Origin: Pseudomonas rhizosphaerae
Lineage (GTDB): Bacteria > Pseudomonadota > Gammaproteobacteria > Pseudomonadales > Pseudomonadaceae
Assembly: GCF_000761155.1 (NCBI RefSeq)
Contig: NZ_CP009533.1
Location: 1,984,001 to 2,048,000, forward strand
Direction of reading: 5' to 3'
DNA length: 64,000 nt
Within the stretch, counting starts at the first letter, position 1. Each line of letters begins with the position of its first letter. Below, piece by piece: positions 18,088-53,769 of this stretch. The position numbers were made by a program, and so were the translations under genes. The notes beneath the pieces are model-generated. The model saw only the letters and a list, made by a program, of their open reading frames with translations. It did not search any database and was not told the DNA's origin.

Positions 18088-18197
18088 GGTGACCCTGCCG
18101 GTCCCCCCGCAACGATTACCCGTGAACCTGGTCAGATCCGGAAGGAAGCAGCCACAGCGGGAACATTGTGTGCCGGGGTGTGGCTGGTAGGGTTGCC
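18088..18197 (+). ncRNA. ffs: Signal recognition particle 4.5S RNA
   Basis: The apical SRP RNA signature is present: GGTCAGATCCGGAAGGAAGC on the first side and GTGTGCCGGGGTGTGGCTGG on the return strand. The outer ends pair (GGTGACCCTGCCGG with the GGCTGGTAGGGTTGCC side), giving one long hairpin of about 110 bases, the size of the bacterial small SRP RNA. It binds Ffh for co-translational membrane targeting. Exact ends are estimated from pairing. Its position just upstream of dnaX is usual in Pseudomonas. Confidence 0.93.
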
Positions 18198-18317
18198 ACC
18201 TCTTCCAGAATTCGTCATTGCACGGGTTCGCAGCATCACCCCTCCCAAGTCTATGTTCATGCGATCAATCGCCATCGCCCACTTTCGCCTGCGTTTCTAC
18301 AAGCCAACGCAGCAATA

Positions 18318-18350: not shown

Positions 18351-18395
18351 CATTAGCATTGGCGGTCTTCCGCTTTCATGTCGCGACGGTTTTCG

Positions 18396-19892
18396 ATGAG
18401 TTATCAGGTTCTTGCACGTAAATGGCGTCCGCGCTCGTTCCGCGAAATGGTCGGCCAGACCCATGTGCTCAAGGCATTGATCAATGCGCTGGACAACCAG
18501 CGGCTGCATCACGCCTACCTGTTCACCGGTACCCGGGGCGTGGGCAAGACCACTATCGCGCGGATCATCGCCAAGTGCGTCAACTGCGAGACGGGCATCA
18601 CCTCCACGCCGTGCGGCGAATGCTCGGTCTGCCGCGAGATCGACGAGGGGCGCTTCGTCGACCTGATCGAGATCGACGCGGCCAGCCGGACCAAGGTCGA
18701 AGACACCCGCGAACTGCTCGACAACGTCCAGTACGCTCCCAGCCGCGGGCGCTTCAAGGTCTACCTGATCGACGAAGTGCACATGCTGTCCAGCCACTCT
18801 TTCAACGCGCTGCTGAAAACGCTGGAAGAGCCGCCGCCCTACGTCAAGTTCATTCTCGCCACCACCGATCCGCAGAAACTGCCGGCGACCATCCTGTCGC
18901 GCTGCCTGCAGTTTTCGTTGAAGAACATGACCCCGGAGCGGGTGGTCGAGCACTTGAACCATGTGCTGGGCGTCGAGAACGTGCCGTTCGAAGACGACGC
19001 GCTGTGGCTGCTGGGCCGCGCGGCCGATGGCTCGATGCGCGATGCCATGAGCCTGACCGACCAGGCCATCGCGTTCGGTGAAGGCAAGGTGTTGGCCGCC
19101 GATGTGCGAGCGATGCTTGGCACCCTGGACCACGGTCAGGTGTATGGCGTGTTGCAGGCACTGCTCGATGGCGATGCCCGTGCGCTGCTCGAAGCGGTAC
19201 GCCATCTGGCAGAGCAGGGGCCGGACTGGAACGGTGTGCTGGCCGAAATGCTCAACGTGCTGCACCGCGTGGCCATCGCCCAGGCGCTGCCCGAGGCGGT
19301 GGACAACGGCCAGGGTGACCGCGATCGCGTGTTGGCGCTGGCCCAGGCACTGCCGGCCGAAGATGTGCAGTTCTACTACCAGATGGGCCTGATCGGCCGC
19401 CGCGACCTGCCTTTGGCCCCGGAGCTGCGAGGCGGCTTCGAGATGGTGCTGCTGCGCATGCTCGCGTTCCGCCCGGCAGGCACCAGCGACGGACCCGATC
19501 AACCACTAAAGACAGTGGGGATCAGCCAAGCCACAGTTGATTCCACCCAACCCGTGGCCGCCTTGCCCCCTGTAGGAGCGGTCATCGGCCGCGAAGAATC
19601 CCCTGCGGATAACCAGACAAACCGCGTCGCCTCCTTCGCGGGCAGAGCCCGCTCCCACAGTTTGATCGCAGCGGAACAACCCCCCGCAGATCAAAAGACA
19701 GACCACCCCCACAGCCGGCCTCCAGCGGAGCAGCCCCCTGTGGGAGCGGGCTCTGCCCGCGAAGAATCCCCGCAGATCAAAAGACAGACCACCCCCACAG
19801 CCCGCCTCCAGCGGAACAGCCCCCTGTGGGAGCGGCTCTGCCCGCGAAGAAGCCGCCGCGCAGCCCCAGGCAGCCCCCGAACCCATCATTGA
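18396..19892 (+). CDS. dnaX: DNA polymerase III gamma/tau subunit, 5' part, frame lost in REP segment
   Basis: Clamp-loader ATPase. From MSYQVLARKWRPRSF the order is Walker A GTRGVGKT at residues 45-52, zinc cysteines C64, C73, C76 and C79, Walker B YLIDEVHMLS, and domain III to about residue 375. From about residue 392 the frame reads through REP DNA ([31 protein letters not shown]) and stops at 19892 after 498 residues. The tau-specific C-terminal domain continues in another frame. As it stands the product would be gamma-like with a REP-encoded tail. The ATG at 18396 is preferred over one six codons upstream because homologues begin MSYQVLARKW. Either the gene is truly broken or the assembly has an indel here. 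Confidence 0.9.
   Translation: MSYQVLARKWRPRSFREMVGQTHVLKALINALDNQRLHHAYLFTGTRGVGKTTIARIIAKCVNCETGITSTPCGECSVCREIDEGRFVDLIEIDAASRTKVEDTRELLDNVQYAPSRGRFKVYLIDEVHMLSSHSFNALLKTLEEPPPYVKFILATTDPQKLPATILSRCLQFSLKNMTPERVVEHLNHVLGVENVPFEDDALWLLGRAADGSMRDAMSLTDQAIAFGEGKVLAADVRAMLGTLDHGQVYGVLQALLDGDARALLEAVRHLAEQGPDWNGVLAEMLNVLHRVAIAQALPEAVDNGQGDRDRVLALAQALPAEDVQFYYQMGLIGRRDLPLAPELRGGFEMVLLRMLAFRPAGTSDGPDQPLKTVGISQATVDSTQPVAALPPVGAVIGREESPADNQTNRVASFAGRARSHSLIAAEQPPADQKTDHPHSRPPAEQPPVGAGSAREESPQIKRQTTPTARLQRNSPLWERLCPRRSRRAAPGSPRTHH
19571..19850. repeat. Four REP elements and an 86-bp tandem duplication inside dnaX
   Basis: REP copies are at 19571-19597 (GTAGGAGCGGTCATCGGCCG type), 19633-19660 (inverted CTTCGCGGGCAGAGCCCGCT), 19739-19765 and 19825-19850. 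An 86-bp unit starting CGCAGATCAAAAGACAGACC at 19685 is repeated from 19771. Its second copy has lost one G in the REP core (GAGCGGCTC against GAGCGGGCTC). These elements are normally intergenic. Confidence 0.9.
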
Positions 19893-20649
19893 CCTGCCCT
19901 GGAACGATCCAGTTGCACCCGCCGTCGTGCCCACCCAGGAACCCATCCTCGACATCGTCGGCGAGCAGCCCGCATTGACCCCAATGCCAGCGCCTACACC
20001 CGCCAGCGCCGTCCCCGATGCCCCTGAAACCGAGCCGGAGCCTTCCGAAGACGACGCCGAACCTGTCGACTACACCCCAGCCGGCATGGACCGCGACGAC
20101 GAGCCGCCACTGGACGAAGACTACTACGCCCCGGAAACCGACGGCGCCGCCTACAGCTACCTCGACGAGCTCGCCAGCGAGACTGTCCACGATGCGCCGG
20201 TCGAGGCCGAACCCGAGGTGCTGCCCGCCGCGCAGCCAGCCACCGGCCTGGCCCTGCAATGGCTCGAACTGTTCCCGAAGCTGCCGATTTCAGGCATGAC
20301 CGGCAGCATCGCCGCCAACTGCACCCTGATCGCCATGGAGGGCGACGACTGGCTGCTGCACCTGGACCCGGCGCAAAGCGCGCTGTTCAACAGCACCCAG
20401 CAGCGCCGCCTGAACGACGCGCTCAACCAGTACCACGGGCGCCCGATCAGCCTGACCATCGAGCTGATCCGTCCGGAACAGGAAACCCCGGCTCAGGCCG
20501 CTGCGCGCTGGCGTGCCAATCGCCAGGCCGATGCCGAGCAGTCGATTCACCAGGACCCGTACATTCAACAAATGCTGCAACAGTTCGGTGCCATCATTCG
20601 CGACGATACGATTGAACCAGTCGAGGCGGTGGCCAGCCCAACGCGTTAA
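19666..20649 (+). pseudogene. dnaX: dnaX 3' part (tau C-terminal domain), out of frame with the 5' part
   Basis: This frame is open from 19666 and encodes PEPIIDLPWNDPVAPAVVPT, an acidic proline-rich linker, and the globular tau C-terminal domain (LALQWLELFPKLPISGMTGS to QDPYIQQMLQQFGAIIRDDT). That domain normally binds the polymerase alpha subunit. It is in the +1 frame relative to the ATPase part. Removing one 86-bp repeat unit and restoring the missing G would join them as [10 protein letters not shown] followed by AAAQPQAAPEP. A GTG at 19927 could start a 240-residue separate product, but no Shine-Dalgarno sequence is apparent. Confidence 0.75.
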
Positions 20650-21102: not shown

Positions 21103-21391
21103 GTAGGAGCGGTCATCGGCCGCGAAAGGCAGACCCCGGTCCACCAGCAAGACCGCGTAATCCCCTTCGCGGCCACTGACCGCTCCCACGACGCCAAGCC
21201 CCCAGCCCCGGACTTTTAGCCTCCCACATTCCCCGTAGGAGCGGTCATCGGCCGCGAAAGCCGGACCCCGGTCCACCAGCAAGACCGCGTAATCCCCTTC
21301 GCGGCCACTGACCGCTCCCACGACGCCAAGCCCCAGCCTCGGACTTTTAGCCTCCCACATTCCCCGTAGGAGCGGTCATCGGCCGCGAAAG
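21103..21391. repeat. Tandem REP array with period of about 132 bp
   Basis: Two nearly identical units of 132 and 131 bp plus a partial third begin at 21103, 21235 and 21366 with GTAGGAGCGGTCATCGGCCG. Each full unit ends with an inverted REP (CTTCGCGGCCACTGACCGCT), so the repeated block is a whole REP doublet with its spacer. It fills most of the 450-bp gap, which has no gene. Confidence 0.9.
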
Positions 21392-49990: not shown

Positions 49991-52129
49991 TTAATTAGCT
50001 CCAAAGGTTCGTTGTCGAATCTTCTCTCTGAGTTCATCGAGGCGGGTTTTGCATTTCTCGAAGAGATCGTTTGTTATAACCGAGTCTCGAGACTCAGTGT
50101 TTGTGATGGCAAGCGTGTGTGCTCTATCGGTACAATGCAGGTAATCGCCAATGTAAAAATTCTCACTCAAAGAAGCCCAGTCAGTCGTGGTCTCATCGAA
50201 AATCTGCAACGTGAGGTAGTAGTCTTCCATGAATTTCTGGTCTGAGAAATACTCTAGCGCATTAGCATCAAACTTTGATTTGTCCAGCATGAAGCTATGA
50301 AGTGGGGCATGGTTTGTCTCTAAGAACTCTTTATAGGTGAAGCCGTATTCGTATGTTTTATTTCTTTTAATGAACCGTTCCGACTCCGATTCGTAGGTTG
50401 TATCATACACGCGTCCAAACGTAGCTTTGGATTGGGTCGTTTGAAGTCTATTTATTAGGTAGCTGTAGGAATCGCTGAGCATGAGATCGTCATGGTCTAG
50501 GAAGGCAACATAACGCGAGGTCGCTGCGTTCAGTCCATCATGTAGAAGTTTGGCTCGAATATCCTGGGAGTTATTATGGGAGTTGAATCGCATAATGGAT
50601 ATTTGGGTGTTGGGTGAGTAATTAAAGTTATCGCACAACGACGTCAATGCTTTAAATTGCTGTTGAGATAGATCTTGGGCGCATATGAGTGGTTTGACGA
50701 CGCAGGAATGGATGGCTGCCAAACTCAGCAATGCATTTCTAAGCTCACTCAGGTTGTCGTTTTTGTGAAATCTAATGATAGTCGTTACCTCGGATAGAAG
50801 GTCCGGGTTTTGAGTTGTAACTTTCGTTGGAAACACACGGGCTTTATGGCATATTTTGAATGTCTGATCTCTGTGGCCCGAAGGAATGAGGATAACAGAG
50901 TTATTGTAAGCACTCTCGGAATGTACGGAGCAATGGCCTACGTCTTTTTGTAGTTCTTGGGATGCGCCGTATTCATTCGATATGATAACGGACTCTGTAT
51001 TGATTGAGTGAGCCTTCCGCATCTCGCTGATGAAACTTTCAGTGATCAGTGCCAGCTTTCTAAACTGTAATTTGAAAGACGGTTTGTGCTTCGAGAGCTG
51101 AACGATGGGGCATTTTAGTCTGTTCAATTCGTCAGCGGCAAATTTATTGCTTACCACGATTTTTAGTTTGCTATTGCGAACAGAAGCAGCCAGTTGTTTG
51201 AAAAATTTTAGTTTGGTAAGGGCGTCTGAATCCAGATCTCGAATAAGATAATCAGGAAGTTCGATTTCAATACATGTTATTGCTTTTAGATTGGGGTTTG
51301 AGCCGATGTCGTCTGAATAGGGTATGTTGGACAGTGCTCGGCCCACACTATTGAGGTACGCATATCCAAAATTTTCATCTGGTTCTAAATGCGCACCCTC
51401 CGCCCATTCGTTCCAGGCGTTGATAACAACTATCTGTCGGTCTGTAGGGAGGTTTTCTTTGGTGTAGGAAATTGCGCTTTCAAGCCAATTCTGAAATTTC
51501 TCAGGCGTGCTGTCATGCACAATATGGGCTTCCGAACCATAACGGGCGGTATTATCCCAAGCCGGAACAAGACTTCTGAAATACTCGAAGTCTTTTGAGC
51601 TGGTCTGATCCATATAGTAACTAGCGACGTCATCATATTTGAGAACACTGCCATTCACCGGCCAATATTTATGCAAAGTGTCCCTGATTTCAGGGGCATT
51701 ACCAGCGGTCCAGTCATGTAATACCCTTTCCAGGGCCCCATCCATGCCGTAGTCCCTAGGGTCGGTGGCACCTCTGGTCATGATAGCGGTGATGTAAAGC
51801 GGCGGTATGCCATGTTCTGCACACACTTTGTTCCAAGTGCTGATGTACTGATCGGGATTTGGAATGGATGATGGACGATAAATATAGAGAACGGGTCGGC
51901 CATCTATCGTGATGTAGCGACTGTCTTTCAAAAATGGCACGAGATACCGTATGAATGCTTCAGCATCTTCTTGTGAGTAATTTTGCGATAGCAGTACTTC
52001 GGAGTCGTTCCCATCCCAGCGCTTAGTCCAGTTCTCATTGGCCCAGCAGAAGCAGTAAGGCATGTCTACATCTTTGTTGGCAAGCAACATGCGAGCGGGC
52101 TCTTCCAGAATCAATTTCCCGAGAACCAA
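49991..52129 (-). CDS. WbsX-like/GT2 glycosyltransferase, 3' part of a frameshifted gene
   Basis: The open frame of 712 codons begins in the middle of a WbsX-type (GH99-like) domain: KLILEEPARMLLANKDVDMP, CFCWANENWTKRWDG and INAWNEWAEGAHLEPDE. A family 2 glycosyltransferase-like domain follows (TTIIRFHKNDNLSELRNALL, AFLDHDDLMLSDSYSYL). The frame has no proper start: the first codon is a TTG inside the upstream frame, and the first ATG is at 52090. One extra A in the GGGAAATTG near 52112-52120 would fuse it to the upstream frame as HYWFSGKLILEEP. A single protein of about 1260 residues is therefore the likely original. Confidence 0.8.
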   Translation of the reverse strand: MVLGKLILEEPARMLLANKDVDMPYCFCWANENWTKRWDGNDSEVLLSQNYSQEDAEAFIRYLVPFLKDSRYITIDGRPVLYIYRPSSIPNPDQYISTWNKVCAEHGIPPLYITAIMTRGATDPRDYGMDGALERVLHDWTAGNAPEIRDTLHKYWPVNGSVLKYDDVASYYMDQTSSKDFEYFRSLVPAWDNTARYGSEAHIVHDSTPEKFQNWLESAISYTKENLPTDRQIVVINAWNEWAEGAHLEPDENFGYAYLNSVGRALSNIPYSDDIGSNPNLKAITCIEIELPDYLIRDLDSDALTKLKFFKQLAASVRNSKLKIVVSNKFAADELNRLKCPIVQLSKHKPSFKLQFRKLALITESFISEMRKAHSINTESVIISNEYGASQELQKDVGHCSVHSESAYNNSVILIPSGHRDQTFKICHKARVFPTKVTTQNPDLLSEVTTIIRFHKNDNLSELRNALLSLAAIHSCVVKPLICAQDLSQQQFKALTSLCDNFNYSPNTQISIMRFNSHNNSQDIRAKLLHDGLNAATSRYVAFLDHDDLMLSDSYSYLINRLQTTQSKATFGRVYDTTYESESERFIKRNKTYEYGFTYKEFLETNHAPLHSFMLDKSKFDANALEYFSDQKFMEDYYLTLQIFDETTTDWASLSENFYIGDYLHCTDRAHTLAITNTESRDSVITNDLFEKCKTRLDELREKIRQRTFGAN

Positions 52130-53769
52130 TAGTGATAGAAAATTTGGCCATGCACGCCGGCCACTTTCATAAGCTGAGCCTGCTTTTTTAGAACGGCAGG
52201 GGAGTCCAATAGGTAATAACCGATGTCACTATGTGGCACATGTTGTTGGTAGTGCTCATTGAACAAAGGCGTTGACGTTTTAACCTTGGTCCACTCGGTA
52301 AATCCTTTTCCATGCCACTCATCGTTTTCAGGGATAGGGTGAAACTGAGGCAGATAGAATGATAAAATCTTGATAGCCTGTTCATTTATAAGCTTGGCGT
52401 AATTTCTCTGCGGCTCATAATATAGTTTCCCTATGTCGCTTTGACCGTTAAGAAGCTTCAGTATTTTTCCAGGAGCGTTGCGCCCGCTTATCAATATTAT
52501 CCGTTCCAAAGCGTGCGCTAAAGTACCATCTGTGGGTATGGGTTCTTCAGGGAAATTTTCCCAGCCCAGCGACATCGAAAGGAAAGGCGAAATTCCTTCC
52601 TTGCTTGCCCAAAACATTGAACCTTCAGGGAATTCGATTTTTTGGAAGTCCGAGATACTGATGTCAAGATGTTCATGCAGTACTTCTCGAGCTATATCGT
52701 AATTTCCCGCCCAGCCTGATGGATCTTTAATGTAATAGCTTTGGCCTTCGGGATATATAAATTTGGTTTCGCTGTTTATCAAGCTCAGTATCTTGTGAAC
52801 TTTATCTTTCGAGCCGAGCAAAGAGTTGAGGATCTGATCGCCCCAGCGCTCAAGGTCTTGAGTATGTGTGCTTTTCTTCGTATGTATGTGACACACTGCG
52901 TCGTAGGCTTGAAGCTCTGCGCCGAACTCGATTATAAATGGTGCTAGATCTCTGCCTTTGTTAGGCACCGTTTTTATGTTCAGTTCCTGTATGTTGCTGA
53001 CGTGCTTGACTATCTCTTCCGATATTTCGCGAGTGGACGTGCAAGGGGTGGACACGAAAAGATCGAAAGCAAGGGGTATGTTGTTAAGATGCTGAATCAT
53101 CTTCTGAAGCATGTCAGGGTAAAATAAGTGCAAGTGTATCGCGACCGTCATACCGTCGATCGATTGTGGTGATCCGCTGTATACTGAGCTTTCCAGGTAA
53201 TAGGGTATACTCGAGACATTCTGCGTTGAAGCGGCTTGTTCAGGCCAGCCACTTTTACTGAAAAGCCGGTCAATACCATTGATCTGGCTTCTAAGCGCGC
53301 TGACTTCTTTACGTACGCTATCGCGGAAGGTTACAAATGAATGCACTCGTTGTTCGTGTTTTCCGAACATTTCAAAGTGTTGTTGCGCAGATCCAAATAC
53401 ACCGTCTCTTACCGCTTCTTCAATATCAGGGTACACATTGAGATAGATAGCTTCATCAAACGCATCCGGTTCGTGGTATTTGTTGGCGACTATCCGAGTC
53501 AGCATTTCAGAGCGTCGCACTGATTCATTCAAGGTCGCTAGTATGGGGGCTCTCAATGCCGCCATGTCCTTCATAAGCTTTTCCTGAATAGTATCCACCT
53601 TCTTGGTTTTCTTTTGGATTCGCTGTTTAGCTAGGCGTATATTGTATTCAACTATCTTTCCAAGCTCAGGATTTTCTTTTCTTGCCCGCTCATAGCTTTT
53701 TATCGCACTTCGATAATCTTCAGCGCGAAACTGCTCGTTGGCGATTGAAAGGCTGGTCTTGGTTTTCAT
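52111..53769 (-). CDS. RgpF-like rhamnan synthesis protein, 5' part of a frameshifted gene
   Basis: A 552-residue frame. The N-terminus has a TPR-like helix pair (ANEQFRAEDYRSAIKSYERA). The central region matches the rhamnan synthesis F family (MTVAIHLHLFYPDMLQKMIQ, TVPNKGRDLAPFIIEFGAEL, VCHIHTKKSTHTQDLERWGD, WAGNYDIAREVL). The last 85 residues start a WbsX domain (KILSFYLPQFHPIPENDEWH, GKGFTEWTKV) and stop abruptly after FYHYWFSGN. The rest of that domain is in the next frame, so the stop at 52111 is a frameshift product. The gene probably makes glycan-chain linkages in the polysaccharide encoded by this AT-rich block. Confidence 0.82.
   Translation of the reverse strand: MKTKTSLSIANEQFRAEDYRSAIKSYERARKENPELGKIVEYNIRLAKQRIQKKTKKVDTIQEKLMKDMAALRAPILATLNESVRRSEMLTRIVANKYHEPDAFDEAIYLNVYPDIEEAVRDGVFGSAQQHFEMFGKHEQRVHSFVTFRDSVRKEVSALRSQINGIDRLFSKSGWPEQAASTQNVSSIPYYLESSVYSGSPQSIDGMTVAIHLHLFYPDMLQKMIQHLNNIPLAFDLFVSTPCTSTREISEEIVKHVSNIQELNIKTVPNKGRDLAPFIIEFGAELQAYDAVCHIHTKKSTHTQDLERWGDQILNSLLGSKDKVHKILSLINSETKFIYPEGQSYYIKDPSGWAGNYDIAREVLHEHLDISISDFQKIEFPEGSMFWASKEGISPFLSMSLGWENFPEEPIPTDGTLAHALERIILISGRNAPGKILKLLNGQSDIGKLYYEPQRNYAKLINEQAIKILSFYLPQFHPIPENDEWHGKGFTEWTKVKTSTPLFNEHYQQHVPHSDIGYYLLDSPAVLKKQAQLMKVAGVHGQIFYHYWFSGN

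Follow-up and report, generated by a model that had tools for sequence, protein, structure and literature searches.

Tau, a product of dnaX, carries DnaB- and alpha-binding parts, and in E. coli tau a long unstructured link is described between domains I-III and IV/V (PMC11470591). A change of frame between the clamp-loader part and the tau part is known from the gamma/tau recoding of E. coli and Thermus and from two-frame dnaX genes in other phyla (PMC3711429). A review reports that recombinant E. coli makes only full-length tau from dnaX of P. aeruginosa (PMC3290774).

In a comparison of Pseudomonas, REPs are described as elements of non-coding regions (PMC3390384), and the account of Pseudomonas REPINs and RAYTs, which deals with inverted REP pairs, clusters, and RAYT genes lying among REPs, counts extragenic elements (PMC3116915). 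REPs lying within genes of replication and repair have been on record since 2013 (PMC3733652). As presented there, REPs of the GTAG and CGTC families occur within genes and are translated with them, in most cases as dimers or groups and often in genes of DNA synthesis and repair, with UvrABD, RecBCD, Pol I, DnaE2, and DnaE among the carriers, and the authors suggest that they encode flexible linkers or loops; dnaX and polymerase III are absent from the main text of that paper. Palindromes that lie in frame inside unrelated genes are also known as the Rickettsia palindromic elements (RPE, reviewed in PMC10969869).

The dnaX gene considered here lies in a window of 64,000 nt (bases 1984001-2048000 in a genome of 4.685 Mb that is assembled as one contig, G000 among the genomes compared), and it carries a REP array between its clamp-loader and tau parts. 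Like the intragenic REPs of PMC3733652, such an array is predicted to be translated in relatives of this strain; unlike them, as far as that paper describes them, it occupies a single site shared by a clade, is tandem, and varies in copy number between near-identical alleles. The RPE, as reviewed, belong to another element family and are found as one insert in each of many genes, whereas the variable array described here is essentially confined to a single gene. The inverted REP pairs, the clustering, and a RAYT gene among REPs in the same genome recall the elements of PMC3116915, but the dnaX array is coding rather than extragenic. Finally, although the frame changes between the same two parts of the gene as in the reported gamma/tau systems, the window has no slippery run of the tested types, two steps are needed, and the frame of its relatives is open. 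Within the open-licence literature, no paper on REPs in dnaX was found by title or start of abstract. REP-decorated replication proteins are already known; what DnaX adds to them is a tether whose in-frame REP array varies in length.

REP cores and a tandem repeat within dnaX

The first part of dnaX matches PF13177, PF22608, and PF12169 and lies in an ORF that, as listed, opens at 18378 and meets the stop of the same frame at 19890-19892; judging from aligned relatives, which begin MSYQVL there, the true start is probably 18396. The tau part (PF12170) lies in a different frame, and the ORFs and domain matches thus bear out what a preliminary description of this DNA had reported. Upstream of dnaX, the stretch ~18100-18200 (+) has what we take to be a resemblance to a small SRP RNA gene.

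Table 1. Features of dnaX and its REP array, in coordinates of the window
Feature	Position	Strand	Remarks
dnaX clamp-loader part	18396..19466	+	DNA_pol3_delta2, ATPase lid, domain III families
REP-derived linker array in dnaX	19565..19862	+	four REP cores: three +, one -
REP core 1	19575-19594	+	
REP core 2 (inverted)	19636-19655	-	27-nt perfect inverted repeat with 19738-19764
Tandem repeat	19682-19859	+	period 86, 2.1 copies, 94% match
REP core 3	19743-19762	+	
First frame step relative to P0001	19768..19771	+	three-frame comparison
REP core 4	19829-19847	+	19 nt; site of second frame step
dnaX tau-specific part	19836..20649	+	third of three frames used; domain V family 20257-20613

That dnaX contains four REP cores along with a tandem repeat of 86 bp, as the preliminary description had also claimed, was confirmed by the core coordinates and by repeat detection; at a spacing of 86, 68 nt of the repeat match at 97%. 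As expected of REPs, the elements are short high-copy palindromes with cores of 19-21 nt and complementary arms, and a GTAG/GTGG-like tag stands at the end of the palindrome, CTGTAGGAGCGG and CTGTGGGAGCGG being seen at the cores (the GTAG family name and the definition of the tag are those given in PMC3733652). Cores 1 and 2 form an inverted pair, the trait of a REPIN, and orientations also alternate in dnaX of a relative (G043); the window's cores 3 and 4 are single copies in direct orientation. Because the genome holds 534 strict REP cores and only 1 for the reversed pattern, and because the array folds far better than its shuffled versions (z -7.5; 0 of 100 shuffles as good), the array is not a product of chance. 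Furthermore, the peptides translated from it match REP-encoded modules of relatives.

The same genome has two Y1_Tnp (Y1-transposase) genes, one of which is surrounded by the same REP type. This RAYT-like gene (L227; contig 1, 2075256-2075561, -) has many REP cores within the 500 bp before it and the 600 bp after it. Within the window, an intergenic REPIN array just downstream of a ybaB-like gene (21106-21388) holds five REP cores of alternating orientation at a spacing near 131-132 bp.

In-frame arrays of variable length in relatives

A protein search with the window ORF gave 7979 proteins, the best 120 of which were listed and fetched; with two new ones from a search with the linker of P0002, these make a set of 122 DnaX proteins. 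REP-like linker peptides are present in 42 of the 122, the REP origin being read in DNA for the window, G043, G249, and G336 and from the peptides for the other REP-bearing proteins. Among the matches listed, the closest DnaX proteins by their conserved parts (P0001-P0004 and P0121, with a core identity of 99.0-99.8% to the window) pass in a single frame through a linker of the same kind at the same site, and the relatives' linkers read as REP translations, with one peptide from one strand and FAATDRSH from the other. P0001, known here as protein alone, is a close allele from another strain with an array that matches that of the window; P0121 has one 29-aa unit but an array unlike the window's. 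In DNA, the genomes G043 and G249 have the array in an open frame, with 3.3 copies of a 114-bp unit. When the linker part of P0002 was used by itself as query, with candidates restricted to proteins 0.55 to 1.75 times the length of this query, 26 proteins were recovered, all with DnaX domains. A REP is consequently read in frame between conserved protein parts in G043, in G249, and in the relatives' proteins, but not in the window sequence as assembled, in which the frame breaks. The preliminary description had named one open frame in relatives as the mark of an error at the break and had foreseen that the presence of REPs within the coding sequence would stand even so; the comparison of dnaX REP content among relatives found an open frame, with the REPs inside it.

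The length of the linker, counted as the residues between MLAFRP and LPW, varies greatly between proteins that are otherwise nearly identical. In hand-picked groups, which leave out at least nine REP-bearing proteins (P0020, P0045, P0046, P0048, P0050, P0053-P0055, and P0122) and come from a clustered database that may favour length variants, four window-like alleles (core identity 98.8-99.5%) have linkers of 130, 130, 139, and 168 aa; seven P. baltica-like proteins (96.8-99.8%) have linkers of 92-168 aa, with 15 of 21 pairs differing; and 19 P. coleopterorum-like proteins (98.7-100%) have linkers of 82-168 aa, with 140 of 171 pairs differing. REP-free relatives (P0024-P0043), compared by linker length alone, have a linker of exactly 73 aa in 20 of 20 cases.

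What is kept within these linkers is the reading frame rather than a particular peptide. The distance between same-strand REPs is divisible by three for all 5 of the 5 spacings in dnaX of G043, for 16 of 81 elsewhere in the two genomes examined, and for 1 of 2 in dnaX of the window, these spacings, like the module pairs that follow, being interdependent. Between the modules of G043 and G249 (three each), differences at codon positions 1/2/3 number 32/52/31, and within genomes they number 12/19/17; in the flanks of G043 and G249, the corresponding figures are 2/0/55 for the first 360 codons and 9/3/37 for the last 200. The modules are without the third-position bias seen in the flanks, and their mean identity is 93.0% within and 88.8% between genomes, with overlapping ranges. 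Frame and openness are kept, and the peptide is less conserved than the flanks; this combination fits a spacer.

In a tree of 97 different DnaX cores, 23 REP-bearing rows, the window among them, form one group with an SH-aLRT support of 94, just below the 95 mark. The REP-bearing rows outside this group are P0020, P0044, P0052, and G336, and the REP label requires four changes on the tree, three of them forced by strong branches. A P0002-type linker query of 398 genomes of the genus found dnaX arrays in G000, G043, and G249, to which G336 was added by eye, so that four genomes among 398 is a lower bound; a P0022-type query of 194 relatives found two (G000 and G043). In G336, a distant Pseudomonas, the same linker of dnaX (L101) holds one degenerate REP that keeps the frame and probably stems from a separate insertion event. 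A scan of 84 loci (80 named and four from the window's own genome) with a strict REP motif, which misses degenerate copies and for which 4 of the 84 loci had no anchor, found dnaX-internal REPs only in the window's own locus.

It was also considered that in-frame REPs might be spread over many genes, but this was not seen in the stretches examined (680 kb from G000, 800 kb from G043). Conserved ORFs contain 7 of the 76 REPs in the G000 stretch (four within dnaX) and 10 of the 148 in the G043 stretch (seven within dnaX). The six outside dnaX are all ~250 bp or less from where the ORF begins, so they may lie upstream of the actual start codon. For nine loci at which a REP frame is free of stops, the translations were judged by eye. 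Elsewhere, locus L223 (contig 13 of G249, ~466475) has a long array of directly repeated single REPs that, in one stop-free frame, would encode about ten copies of one peptide.

The frame break in the window

Aligned to the window by tblastn, P0001 follows one frame to ~19770 and another from ~19835, and the stretch between lies in the third frame, in which 21 residues are identical to P0001. The window thus departs from P0001 by two frame steps within about 70 bp, each one base short. At the first, the tandem unit is 86 bp, and the matching unit of P0001 is 29 codons (87 bp). The second is at core 4, which is the lone 19-nt core among 229 REP cores in 680 kb of the window's own genome and 800 kb of G043 (20 nt in 218 and 21 nt in 10). 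The preliminary description needs correction here: relative to the closest intact protein there are two steps, and the unit that keeps the frame is 87 bp.

To what extent the assembly can be trusted was judged from split genes. With 1451 G043 ORFs queried, 15 of 660 conserved ones were flagged as split relative to G000, and 23 of 647 in the reverse direction, in a compared total of 655 kb that contains overlaps because antisense shadow ORFs are included; these counts supersede those of a smaller comparison (6 of 291 and 11 of 306). Reading of the alignments identified two long genes that are intact in G043 but broken in the window genome, dnaX and a gene for a 1259-aa glycosyltransferase. Several other flagged ORFs have a lone small indel, for which either genome could be the broken one, and the remaining cases are shadow ORFs, gene ends, or many-indel regions. 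A generally poor assembly is unsupported, given a single contig with few breaks (15/660). The assembly being good overall, it is the array itself that is suspect, and the break in dnaX is most likely a sequencing or assembly error.

The glycosyltransferase gene (50000-53769, -) is split at ~52117, and its pieces comprise RgpF with the start of WbsX and the rest of WbsX with a family 2 glycosyltransferase; in P. baltica, it is a single 1259-aa ORF. A run at ~52117 is one base shorter in the window than in P. baltica, by error or by phase variation.

Taken together, these results have led to the following model, which as a whole we regard as likely. In a clade that unites the window's species with P. 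baltica, P. coleopterorum, and their kin, REPs or REPINs, perhaps inserted by a RAYT, lie in frame within the flexible DnaX linker that separates the clamp-loader part from the part of tau that binds helicase and polymerase. The array would grow and shrink by whole-codon tandem modules, presumably through recombination between repeats, and would thus be translated as a spacer of very variable length, whose peptide is under little constraint and of which frame and openness are kept. The window has the same array, one base short in two places, most likely from an error in a GC-rich, palindromic array. If the break is an error, the living cell therefore makes full-length tau.

Alternatively, the break could be real, and the cell would then make a gamma-like DnaX of ~500 aa; tau would be absent, or its domain would arise through initiation within the gene or through leaky decoding. 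This outcome, which the preliminary description had raised, leaky decoding aside, for the case of a real break, appears unlikely. The assembly is a single contig with few breaks, repeats with strong hairpins are plausible sites of mutation, and the tau part does have in-frame start codons, the earliest being GTG 19927, TTG 19975, and ATG 19984. However, inspection by eye found no clear ribosome-binding site ahead of these starts, core 4 is aberrantly short, and no truncated form with a REP linker is present in the best 120 of 7979 homologs; the six among these 120 that are shorter than 620 aa (three labelled partial, and one more a partial MAG sequence) are without a REP-like peptide. Furthermore, the part of tau that would be lost is reported to bind DnaB and the polymerase (PMC11470591), full-length tau is said to be the only product when recombinant E. 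coli expresses P. aeruginosa dnaX (PMC3290774), and filamentation, SOS induction, and cell death are described for E. coli mutated in domain V (PMC11470591, PMC11869525).

Programmed recoding, in which the ribosome or RNA polymerase would slip within the array to give both products, as for dnaX of Chlorobium and Thermus, is very improbable. The break does lie near the position of the reported E. coli gamma/tau boundary (residue 431; PMC11470591), strong hairpins follow it, and two-frame dnaX genes are described from other phyla (PMC3711429). Yet two steps would be required instead of one, and dnaX of the window has no in-frame seven-base slippery run of the tested types; these two points rule against recoding. 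In addition, the relatives have one open frame, and the frame change is thus not conserved. In-frame slippery runs were found in 8 of 100 dnaX genes, seven of them A-type and outside Pseudomonas and one a C7 run in G249 (L085), where the frame is open.

The preliminary description was right to envisage an in-frame ancestor with a REP-encoded linker, a form now found in the closest relatives, but its version with one unit instead of two and one extra base in the last REP core, though arithmetically able to unite the two outer frames, is unsupported and highly improbable because P0001 keeps both 29-aa units in a single frame and the middle frame between the steps has 21 residues identical to it.

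A tether encoded by repeats

The REP array is real and unusual: shared by a clade, it lies in frame in the tether that a replication protein carries, and its length varies. The loss of tau in the window strain is probably not real. As a practical matter, an apparent loss of frame in a finished genome can be an artefact of a REP array inside the gene.

Proteins with at least 98.7% identity outside the tether can have tethers that differ in length by as many as 86 residues. It is conceivable, though doubtful, that the REP array acts as a dial for the length of the tau tether, with copy number tuning the coupling at the fork, and that hairpins in the mRNA might add a gamma-like product. If this were true, copy number could change fast by repeat recombination, and how far the tether can span from clamp loader to helicase and polymerase would vary among strains of one species. 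Since nature has provided variants of tau-linker length with nearly constant end domains, the effect of tether length on the coupling of helicase, clamp loader, and polymerase is testable.
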